A DNA stretch of 64,000 bases from Diprion similis. Taxonomy: Eukaryota > Arthropoda > Insecta > Hymenoptera > Diprionidae. The stretch's first letter is position 1; the number at the start of each line of letters is the position of its first letter. The notes beneath the pieces are model-generated. The model did not search any database. It was not told where the DNA came from and saw nothing but the letters and a program-made list of their open reading frames with translations. Below, piece after piece: positions 59,831 to 64,000 of this stretch. The stretch is taken from the NCBI RefSeq assembly GCF_021155765.1, contig NC_060107.1:15114501-15178500 (forward strand), read 5' to 3'. Position numbers and translations under genes: made by a program.

Positions 59831-60532
59831 GTTGACATCAAATTGGTTTGTTGTTAATTAAAAGACCTACATATCCAAGAATTCATTCTACATTAATACA
59901 AGGTGGTCAAGACTATTTCATACATATTACGATTCAGTCAGCGCACATTTACAAATTAGATTTTTACATTTAAAAATACGTTAACTTGAGATTAATGACT
60001 CGTTTCAATAACCTGACCCCCTAGTGCATTTGCATGTCTAAGATATGTTCTTCGGATTACAATATCGCCGCAGTGCTTGGGGCACTCAATTAACATAAGT
60101 ACGCTCTTGCCGTGGAAAGAGAGAAGTACTCGTCATACTATGTCTCTTTTTTTCGCCGGCTCGGTGACACTTTTTCCGCCACCAGGCTTGCTCCATACTG
60201 TATATGCTCTAAGAAACCAAATTGCTTTGAAAATCGACAAATTTTACGCCAACAGGTAATCAGATAAGTATTCTCACCAAGAATCTTTTAAAACCACCAG
60301 ATTTAGCGGGAAAATCACCAAGCTGGCAATTCTGATTCGAATTACAAATCCTTTGTACAAATCCAGGAATAATCTGCGCCAGCGCTGCTATCGGCAAGAA
60401 TTGGAACCATTATTATTCGAAATTCCGGCTGCAACTAGCTTAATGTAGGAAGCGCCGAGTGCCGAGTGGAGCGGGTGGAACTCTTTCTTCCTACCCTCCA
60501 CATTTCAGGAATTCGGGTTGATTTTGGATATT

Positions 60533-61567
60533 ATGTTTACTAGAAAAGAACAATTGATTGCACGTACAGGAAAGAATAAGGTTGGCCGTTTTGAATTCTT
60601 AAAACTTTTGACTAACGAATTCAAAACTTCAAAGTCTAAAGGTAATCGATACTAATATTCTAATTTTTGTGTTGTTGTTATGGTCAAAACGTTTGAGCTT
60701 GCATGATTTTTCATTATACAAACAATTCGATGATGTCCATCCACTTCTAATTCTAAACATACAAATATGGAATTCGGTTGAAACAAAAGCACTGAGAGGA
60801 ATACATGGGAAAGAATTCCTAACCCCAATCTAACTGAGAAGTTCCGAATGACCTATTTTACACCAAATAAATTTGTCGAATACATTATTTACATGTAAAA
60901 ATTGATTGTACATTCACAGAAGCAAAGACACAGGTGTTGGCTAACTTGGCAAATTTTGCTTACGATCCAATAAACTATGAATATCTACGGAAACTGAAGG
61001 TAATCGATCTGTTCCTATATTTACTTTCGGAAGATGACAAAGATTTTGTACGTTTTGCCATCAGCGGAATCTGCAACTTGTGTTTAGGTAATGTTACTTA
61101 TCGTCAACAAAAACCATCATTGGCAAAAATTATTCTCATACACTTTCAAAAATTTCTACCAAATTACTCAGAATTTAAATTTCAGACAGTTGAATATTTT
61201 TGATAATTTTTTCATCACAGATTTCCCACGTAAAACCTAAGTTTTGTTTGCAGATCCAGAGAACAAAGATTACATCGTTCACAGTCAAGGTGTGCAGGCT
61301 GTATCGTCTCTGTTGACATCCTCCGACGAAGAGACTGTTCTTTCTGCTACAACAACATTGATGTTCCTGATCTCGCCTTTTTCGAAACCACTCATAACTT
61401 CTCCTAAAATTATCGAATCTATGATACATTTCTCAAATAGTTCCAATATTAGAATTAAAAACTTGGCAACTATATTCCTTACAGATTACTGTTCCGATAC
61501 CGACGTCAAGCACACCAAAGAACATCCAACAGTTTTACCAGTTTCTGCGATTCCACTACCGCATTGA
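60533..61567 (+). CDS. ARMC7: Armadillo repeat-containing protein 7
   Basis: Exons 60533-60641, 60920-61087 and 61254-61567; phases join to give 196 residues, against about 198 in human ARMC7. The N-terminus ([19 protein letters not shown]) leads into [19 protein letters not shown], the most conserved ARMC7 block, then [34 protein letters not shown] and a C-terminus near IPLPH. The fold is a short stack of armadillo repeats that fills most of the protein. The family has been linked to spliceosome-associated assemblies, but its molecular task is not well defined. The first ATG after a pyrimidine-rich leader was chosen. The next gene, HTD2, begins 79 bases after the stop. Confidence 0.93.
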
Positions 61568-61646
61568 ACCAATTTTCATTCTCTAAGAATATTTGTCACA
61601 ATATTTTGATACTTCAAATCACCAAACGATATTATTTAGCTAATCC

Positions 61647-62123
61647 ATGATGTATAGCAGGCTTTGCACACTCTGCGCAAGGCATTCAAGGTCCTACAGT
61701 GCCAATCTTCAGTCGAAATTTGCCTCTAATCGAAGCTTCAAAGCCGGCGATACTATAACTATAACTAAATTGATAACGGAGGATGATATTTTGAGTTTTG
61801 CCAAGCTCACTGGCGATTTCAATCCAATTCACATAGATTCTCCTAAGAATATTGTCCACGGAGCATTCCTAAATAGTTTGGTTTCTGGAGTTATTGGTAC
61901 TAAATTACCAGGTCCTGGGACAATAGTCGTTGAACAGCTAATCAAGTATTTGAATCCTTGTTATACTGGCGATACTGTTTCGATAACTGTTGACGTAATC
62001 GCTATAAGGAAAATTATCAGGTGTAAATATCGCTGCATTGCTAACATGGAACGAATTGTTCTTGAAGGTGAAGCTAAACTCATATCGAGTAAGAAGAAAA
62101 AGAACATCAGCTTCACGGAGTAG
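61647..62123 (+). CDS. HTD2: Hydroxyacyl-thioester dehydratase type 2, mitochondrial
   Basis: Single-exon ORF of 158 codons. The first 30 residues (MMYSRLCTLCARHSRSYSAN) are basic, lack acidic residues and look like a mitochondrial targeting peptide. The rest is one MaoC/hot-dog domain: FKAGDTITI, then FAKLTGDFNPIHID with the hydratase-2 catalytic Asp and His, IVHGAFLNSLVSGVIGTKLP, GPGTIVVEQ and LNPCYTGDTVSI. In the family this enzyme does the dehydration step of mitochondrial fatty acid synthesis (3-hydroxyacyl-ACP to trans-2-enoyl-ACP), which supplies octanoate for lipoic acid. Two ATGs occur in tandem at the start; either could be used. It follows ARMC7 by 79 bases and has its own poly(A) signal 56 bases after the stop. 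Human HTD2 is translated from the bicistronic RPP14 mRNA. Confidence 0.93.
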   Translation: MMYSRLCTLCARHSRSYSANLQSKFASNRSFKAGDTITITKLITEDDILSFAKLTGDFNPIHIDSPKNIVHGAFLNSLVSGVIGTKLPGPGTIVVEQLIKYLNPCYTGDTVSITVDVIAIRKIIRCKYRCIANMERIVLEGEAKLISSKKKKNISFTE

Positions 62124-62178: not shown

Positions 62179-62184
62179 AATAAA
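62179..62184 (+). terminator. Poly(A) signal shared by ARMC7/HTD2
   Basis: AATAAA 56 bases after the HTD2 stop. No AATAAA or ATTAAA occurs in the 79 bases between ARMC7 and HTD2, so this is the first candidate end for ARMC7 transcripts as well. Confidence 0.6.
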
Positions 62185-63104: not shown

Positions 63105-64000
63105 ATGCGCCTACAAATTCTGGCCGTGATTTTGTGTGCGTCGCAAATCTGTGCGGATGAAACGACGCAGACAGCAACGACAAGTAATGTGACAACAACC
63201 GATGCTCCTACAACTGAAACAACACCACTCGGCTGTGTTTGCGGAGTATTTTTGAGCGGGCAGTTCAAGAAGGGAAGCAAGGAACAACCTAAAGGAAATC
63301 CAGCTCTACTTCACGAACATCCCGATGATTTTCCCTGCTCAATTGTCGGGAACAAACTCTGTACCAACAAATGCCTCGACACTGTTAGTAACCTTTTTGT
63401 TGTTCAAAAACCATTAACGGCAATTTAAATTCCTGTTTACTTTTATCTTTTTCTTTTAGTATTCCTTTTTGGTATCAAAAATAGAAAATGAATACATGCG
63501 ATTATCATTCATTCATCAACTGAATAACTATTTACAATTTTGAATATCGATGACTTTCACAGATTGTGAAGCACCTTCCCAACAGTCCAGCGATTCTCTG
63601 CGGATCAATTGATCGTGATTGTCATAAAGAAAGGGTAAGTTTTTGTCAAATAATTGTCTTACATTATCAGAAAATAAAAACAAGCTCATTGATATCTTGA
63701 TGCAATTTGAAATTAGATAAAATCGGTAATATTGTGTTAGAATTAAATTTTCTTAGCACATGATTTCATAACACTGGTGAAAAGAGAAGACTTATTACGC
63801 TTGCTTCAATAACGAAAATGAATTCATATTTTCTACGTCGGTTGGAATTGCAATGTTGTGCGTATAGTACAGTTTCAAATTTTCAATACCACAATTTACT
63901 TCCAGGCATACTTGTTCATAAAGAACTGCAAGGATGAATGGATAAACACGAATCTCTCGGCAGGACGTGAATACTGCTGCAAAGATGGATTGCCGTACAA
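63105..64000 (+). CDS. Fcp3C: Follicle cell protein 3C-1-like secreted protein, 5' part
   Basis: Coding exons 63105-63383, 63563-63634 and 63906 to beyond the window end. A non-coding first exon ends at 62882, and the acceptor for the ATG exon is at 63095. The ATG is followed by a signal peptide (RLQILAVILCASQICA), then a Thr-rich stretch likely to be O-glycosylated, then a Cys-rich region: CVCGVFLSGQFKKGSKEQPK, NKLCTNKCLDT, LCGSIDRDCHKER and GREYCCKDGLPYK. These blocks resemble insect follicle cell protein 3C-1, a small secreted protein known from ovarian follicle cells; its biochemical role is not established. Truncated by the window edge, so the C-terminus is missing. The family name is from recognition of conserved blocks; secreted and Cys-rich is directly visible. 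Confidence 0.75.

Follow-up and report, generated by a model that had tools for sequence, protein, structure and literature searches.

The ARMC7 and HTD2 genes

The window analysed here is a stretch of 64,000 nucleotides (G000:C3:15114501-15178500) within a 269-Mb genome of 60 contigs, and all positions in the window are counted from its first letter. Two genes, ARMC7 and HTD2, follow one another on its forward strand. Their features are as follows.

60533..60641, + strand: ARMC7 coding exon 1, with an ATG start (A at -3) and an open joined frame; the exon was matched in its own genome
60920..61087, + strand: ARMC7 coding exon 2, with an open joined frame; its acceptor is in the top 2.2% of the window AGs
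61254..61567, + strand: ARMC7 coding exon 3, ending in the stop codon TGA (61565-61567); its acceptor is in the top 2.4% of the window AGs
61424..61646, + strand: stretch of 223 nt free of ATG before the HTD2 start, from an ATG scan
61568..61646, + strand: intercistronic gap of 79 nt with a GC content of 27%, devoid of ATG and of all 12 poly(A) hexamers searched for
61630..61639, + strand: acceptor-like sequence TATTATTTAG, present, with a weak score
61647..62123, + strand: HTD2 ORF, intronless, 158 aa, an intact ATG frame with a MaoC-like domain
62179..62184, + strand: first AATAAA 3' of the ARMC7 stop, 56 nt past the HTD2 stop

When the three ARMC7 exons are joined, they give a complete coding sequence of 591 nt with a single open frame of 196 aa. 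The best PDB match of the whole protein is human ARMC7 (7dvq_K, E=7.8e-51); residues 10-190 of 198 are aligned, with 50% identity over the aligned part, and the similarity to the human protein is full-length. Only one ARMC7 locus was found by the own-genome search. Collections of viral and of prokaryotic contigs were also scanned for relatives of ARMC7 that might come from stray insect DNA, and the pattern matches obtained (24 and 64, respectively) yielded no confirmed relative. According to passages of PMC11039992, ARMC7 is one of four proteins that the minor B-act spliceosome contains and the major one lacks, and it binds the U6atac cap together with RBM48. Its membership in the minor spliceosome is also listed in a section of PMC12084885. 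As a separate observation, the sequence AAGGTAATCGAT occurs at 60997-61008 within ARMC7 exon 2 and also at 60639-60650 across the exon-1 donor; because it is shared with that donor, exon 2 contains a possible decoy donor.

The HTD2 frame matches the MaoC-like Pfam family PF01575 (E=1.5e-11), and among PDB entries it is most similar to human HTD2 (3ir3, E=4.4e-19). Besides the domain, it carries TGDFNPIH aligned with human 3ir3, which agrees with GDxNPxH, the active-site motif of the MaoC-like domain of HTD2. Residues 1-34 are basic, lack D and E, and look like a mitochondrial presequence when the sequence is read by eye. There is an in-frame TAA at 61641-61643, upstream of the ATG, and together with the basic N-terminus this stop indicates 61647 or 61650 as the start of HTD2. 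Of these two ATGs, the first has T at -3 and the second, 3 nt downstream, has A at -3. The own-genome search gave a single HTD2 locus. Two other MaoC-like matches were found at E <= 0.1, both on contig C10, and they probably represent exons of a gene for a peroxisomal multifunctional enzyme.

Two further observations were made around HTD2. A segment of 8 residues after GDFNPIH (window 61830-61860), near the active site, is present in 3ir3 and 5cpg and absent from the HTD2 frame. Beginning about 1 kb 3' of HTD2, the next + strand gene (window 63105-64000) apparently encodes a secreted, threonine-rich protein that contains cysteine.

Both genes are ordinary and intact and lie head to tail, and the arrangement is real. 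The original prediction, made by a model from the letters of this DNA, named both genes and gave their coordinates, their common strand and the gap of 79 nt, and all of these are confirmed.

Poly(A) signals and the closeness of the two genes

It had also been predicted that no AATAAA lies between the ARMC7 stop and the HTD2 ATG while one lies just after HTD2, and this is correct, with the latter at 62179. Neither the gap nor the sequence spanning the ARMC7 stop contains any of the 12 common poly(A) hexamers, and the same holds for the whole stretch from 61548 to 61763. Weak hexamer variants do occur inside the HTD2 ORF (ACTAAA at 61764 and 61899, and AAGAAA at 62094).

For comparison, a control set of 39 3' ends was prepared from the same genome, consisting of 12 of 13 Ras-family, 14 of 20 mitochondrial-carrier, 9 of 13 LSM and 4 of 5 CHCH ends. 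The 13 Ras and 20 carrier ends were chosen from 30 loci each, out of 110 and 112 matches, by the profile end and the absence of an internal stop, and 7 of them were skipped as no stop was nearby. The LSM and CHCH matches dropped were MIA40 itself and L073, L075, L076 and L080, which had internal stops or gave a short match. Seven carrier ends (L039, L041, L054, L063, L064, L065 and L066) are likely false because a further family match lies downstream. Therefore, the counts below use the other 32 ends, among which some may still be false. For all 39 ends, the corresponding counts are 29 without A(A/T)TAAA, 19 without all 12 hexamers, 1 with a close follower and 0 with an ATG-free stretch.

It was found that A(A/T)TAAA is missing from the first 79 nt in 24 of the 32 sampled 3' ends, and all 12 hexamers are missing in 16 of them, which is an even chance. 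In 5 of the 32 the first A(A/T)TAAA is at least 612 nt away, as with ARMC7, and of all 79-nt stretches on the + strand of the window, 92% have no AATAAA. Read-through from ARMC7 into HTD2 is permitted by the missing signals, but because such a lack is so common among the control ends it is weak evidence for a shared transcript, and in this use the original prediction does not hold up. The unusual feature is the closeness of HTD2 to ARMC7, unlike the missing signals. Only 1 of the 32 sampled ends is followed within 150 nt by an ATG-ORF of 100 aa or more on the same strand, and that one is the COA4-PTRH2 pair described below. Three more downstream ORFs of 80-100 aa were seen at L022, L064 and L066; the family check covered the COA4 follower only.

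From this arrangement, ARMC7 and HTD2 quite probably share an mRNA. Transcription of ARMC7 would run through the gap, and cleavage after HTD2, at or near 62179, would yield a dicistronic mRNA. On the other hand, the two genes may be separate units that are just compactly packed, with ARMC7 using a non-canonical poly(A) signal in the gap, and with transcription of HTD2 from a promoter in exon 3 or the gap. The frequency of hexamer-free first 79 nt in the control set leaves room for such a short 3' UTR, and the AATAAA that lies across the COA4 stop indicates that read-through is not a necessary feature of close pairs in this genome. With none of the 12 hexamers in 61548-61763, however, ARMC7 would need an unusual signal, and we regard the separation into two units as unlikely.

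Two other approaches to the gap were discarded. The RNA fold of the gap is not distinctive (z -1.34, with 18 of 200 shuffles equally good), and a structured element was rejected as the fold is no better than shuffles. A bacterial promoter scan of the stretch is irrelevant for insect DNA.

Translation of HTD2, putative short leaders and promoter motifs

Counted from the ARMC7 start along the spliced mRNA, five ATGs (that of ARMC7 and 4 more) are ahead of the HTD2 ATG, and 2 of them are off-frame. Scanning from the ARMC7 cap is disfavoured because the ARMC7 ATG, with its A at -3, and the 4 others precede HTD2, and also by the T at -3 of the first HTD2 ATG, although the second one has A there. 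Re-initiation after a frame of 196 codons is usually poor. The number of off-frame ATGs in ARMC7 (2 observed vs 4.2 expected, P=0.07) was considered as a sign of leaky scanning and rejected, as it is not significant and the HTD2 frame itself shows the same depletion (P=0.03).

Immediately before the HTD2 start there are 223 nt free of ATG. Such stretches make up 2.4% of the sampled + strand window stretches of equal length, and an equivalent one was found at 0 of the 32 control 3' ends. When ARMC7 was shuffled synonymously, the coding part stayed ATG-free in 27% of the shuffles, and the gap in 48% of its own shuffles, so by comparison with shuffles the lack of ATG in the leader is not significant. 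Of the other tight pairs described below, MIA40 has 306 ATG-free nt upstream of its ATG (shuffles: coding part 7%, gap 15% ATG-free), and at PTRH2 the preceding ATG is merely 92 nt upstream. The ATG-free stretches give a weak hint, from a pattern recognised post hoc, of short leaders that start inside the last exon of the upstream gene.

Core-promoter motifs were searched for from 60101 to 61700 with six consensus sequences. One Inr-like match (TCATTC, 61576) and one Ohler-7-like motif (60380) were found, and the rest of the six gave no match in this interval. The Inr at 61576, together with the 223 ATG-free nt before the HTD2 ATG, would suit a separate HTD2 unit. However, the Inr consensus occurs about 2 times per kb in the window, and the match is thus only at chance frequency. 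The sequence ATCGAT at 60645 and 61003 was given no weight because it has 39 occurrences in the window.

There are several ways in which the HTD2 protein may be supplied. One alternative is that both proteins come exclusively from one mRNA, with leaky scanning, re-initiation or internal entry giving HTD2. The gap of 79 nt is inside the range (-34 to 319 nt) of the exclusively polycistronic loci of Drosophila, the first AATAAA does not come until after HTD2, and for human RPP14/HTD2 leaky scanning and/or re-initiation is expected in a review. Against these points, the HTD2 ATG still has five ATGs ahead of it after splicing, two of them off-frame, the ATG depletion is within chance, and the gap has no unusual RNA fold. 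Such exclusive expression is possible but rather unlikely.

The reading that we prefer, and consider reasonably probable, combines the two sources: a dicistronic mRNA exists, and HTD2 is made partly from it and partly from shorter capped mRNAs. Part of the protein would come from the dicistronic mRNA by leaky scanning or re-initiation. The other part would come from shorter capped mRNAs that start within ARMC7 exon 3 or the gap, and the leaders of these would use the 223 nt without AUG before the HTD2 start. If HTD2 is expressed, the chance that it comes mainly from its own short mRNA is about even, the dicistronic mRNA as the main source falls somewhat short of that, and exon skipping as the main source is improbable.

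A possible exon-skipping isoform

The original prediction also pointed to an acceptor-like sequence at 61630-61639, and TATTATTTAG is indeed present there. It was taken to allow an isoform that skips ARMC7 exon 3 and links the ARMC7 leader with HTD2. In such an isoform, the leader and exon 1, or exons 1-2, would be joined to 61640. The site was scored with a small model trained on 22 acceptors inferred in this genome, which shows poor separation in leave-one-out. In this model, 39% of the AGs on both window strands score at least as high as the site at 61639; the two acceptors of ARMC7 itself are equalled or exceeded by only 2.2% and 2.4%. As support for the skipping isoform the site is therefore weak; owing to the poor separation, the low score lowers the probability of such an isoform and does not exclude it.

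A splice to 61640 would leave a truncated ARMC7 frame of 39 or 95 codons. The two ARMC7 donors agree in phase, and with either join a TGA falls at 61648-61650, which overlaps the HTD2 ATG (ATGA), an arrangement that suits stop-start coupling. Splices that disrupt one frame are also known to give rise to some monocistronic isoforms in FlyBase, as described in part of PMC4528330. But the overlap of TGA and ATG is a one-in-three matter of frame, and with 39% of the window AGs matching or beating the acceptor, alternative splicing as the explanation of this locus is very improbable.

Other tight gene pairs in the same genome

Tight same-strand pairs recur in this genome, with two more besides ARMC7-HTD2.

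L005 913-1755 (G000:C13 ~258620-259462), - strand: RPP14 last exon, then 69 nt, then MIA40/CHCHD4, from PDB matches
L085 1287-2093 (G000:C10 near 11986048), both on the same strand: COA4-like gene of two exons, then 47 nt, then PTRH2, the latter from family and PDB matches

The first pair came from the question of where RPP14, the vertebrate partner of HTD2, is located. A single match to the Rpp14/Pop5 family was found at E <= 1 (G000:C13:259208-259417, - strand) and identified as RPP14. The identification rests on the last exon, the part that was compared, for which the human RNase P subunit p14 was the sole distinct PDB sequence matched at E <= 1. The MIA40/CHCHD4 frame behind it is intronless, encodes 157 aa (PDB 2k3j, E=1.2e-41) and occurs at one place in the genome. 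From its sequence, RPP14-MIA40 is a second candidate dicistronic pair, with an RNA-processing gene first and a mitochondrial gene second.

In the second pair, we read the first gene as COA4, and its protein has a CHCH-like domain only, below the curated cut-off. The PTRH2 frame is intronless and matches PF01981 (E=4.4e-43) and bit1 (1q7s, E=4.7e-32), which we take to be human PTRH2. As COA4 is itself mitochondrial, the RNA-processing theme fails at this pair. Also, RPP14-MIA40 was found via the question and not by sampling, so only COA4-PTRH2 counts for the rate of close pairs.

Both pairs are like ARMC7-HTD2 in their common strand, their short gap (69 and 47 nt) and their intronless mitochondrial second gene; the second frame is intronless in all three (HTD2, MIA40 and PTRH2). 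They are unlike it in a possible poly(A) signal across the upstream stop. AGTAAA spans the RPP14 stop and AATAAA overlaps the COA4 stop, so the end of either upstream gene could lie in the gap, and the two pairs are poorer support for read-through.

Comparison with known dicistronic systems

The vertebrate RPP14-HTD2 bicistronic mRNA was reportedly the subject of a study by Autio et al. in 2008. HTD2 is the downstream frame in that mRNA, as given in passages of PMC5932603, PMC4705651 and PMC8509007, and a review expects leaky scanning and/or re-initiation for human RPP14/HTD2 and calls it uninvestigated. The insect locus is similar in that HTD2, a mitochondrial dehydratase gene, is again the downstream frame and lies behind an RNA-processing gene on the same strand. 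It is different in the upstream frame, which is ARMC7 here; RPP14 has MIA40 behind it on contig C13. The shared mRNA is reported for the vertebrate pair, whereas for the insect pair it is predicted from the DNA.

The partner of HTD2 thus differs from that in vertebrates, as predicted, with RPP14 beside MIA40 on C13. The prediction called the new partner unrelated, which calls for a qualification, as both partners are RNA-processing genes. As ARMC7 is a minor-spliceosome protein, the neighbour of HTD2 is an RNA-processing gene in both lineages. It is tempting to regard HTD2 as a second cistron that swapped partners and always stayed behind an RNA-processing gene, RPP14 in vertebrates and ARMC7 here, with RPP14 in its turn carrying MIA40 in this insect, but we consider this improbable. 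If such a partner exchange were true, it would point to selection for the co-production of nuclear RNA-processing factors and mitochondrial proteins, and not to one frozen accident. The RPP14-MIA40 neighbourhood is the most useful addition of this analysis, and HTD2 behind ARMC7 and RPP14 before MIA40 form a natural test, in which selected links would be expected to recur across insects and packing accidents would not. Apart from such a test, the locus is an ordinary compact pair.

No report of an ARMC7-HTD2 pairing, or of RPP14 with MIA40 under its name CHCHD4, was found in the open-licence literature, which is no proof of their being unreported. Su(var)3-9 with eIF2 gamma, described in PMC1435931, is a different gene fusion.

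A wider comparison can be made with Drosophila melanogaster. According to excerpts of PMC4528330, FlyBase holds 159 dicistronic pairs, with a polycistronic transcript in 2.5% of gene models; exclusively dicistronic expression is annotated for 45 of the 159 loci, and the gaps of the exclusively polycistronic loci are from -34 to 319 nt. ARMC7 and HTD2 are likewise adjacent coding frames on the same strand with a short gap, the 79 nt being inside this range, and as in most of the FlyBase loci the partners are dissimilar. The FlyBase loci rest on cDNA or RNA-seq, and ARMC7-HTD2 on genomic DNA. ARMC7-HTD2 is an arrangement of a known kind, fairly common in Drosophila.
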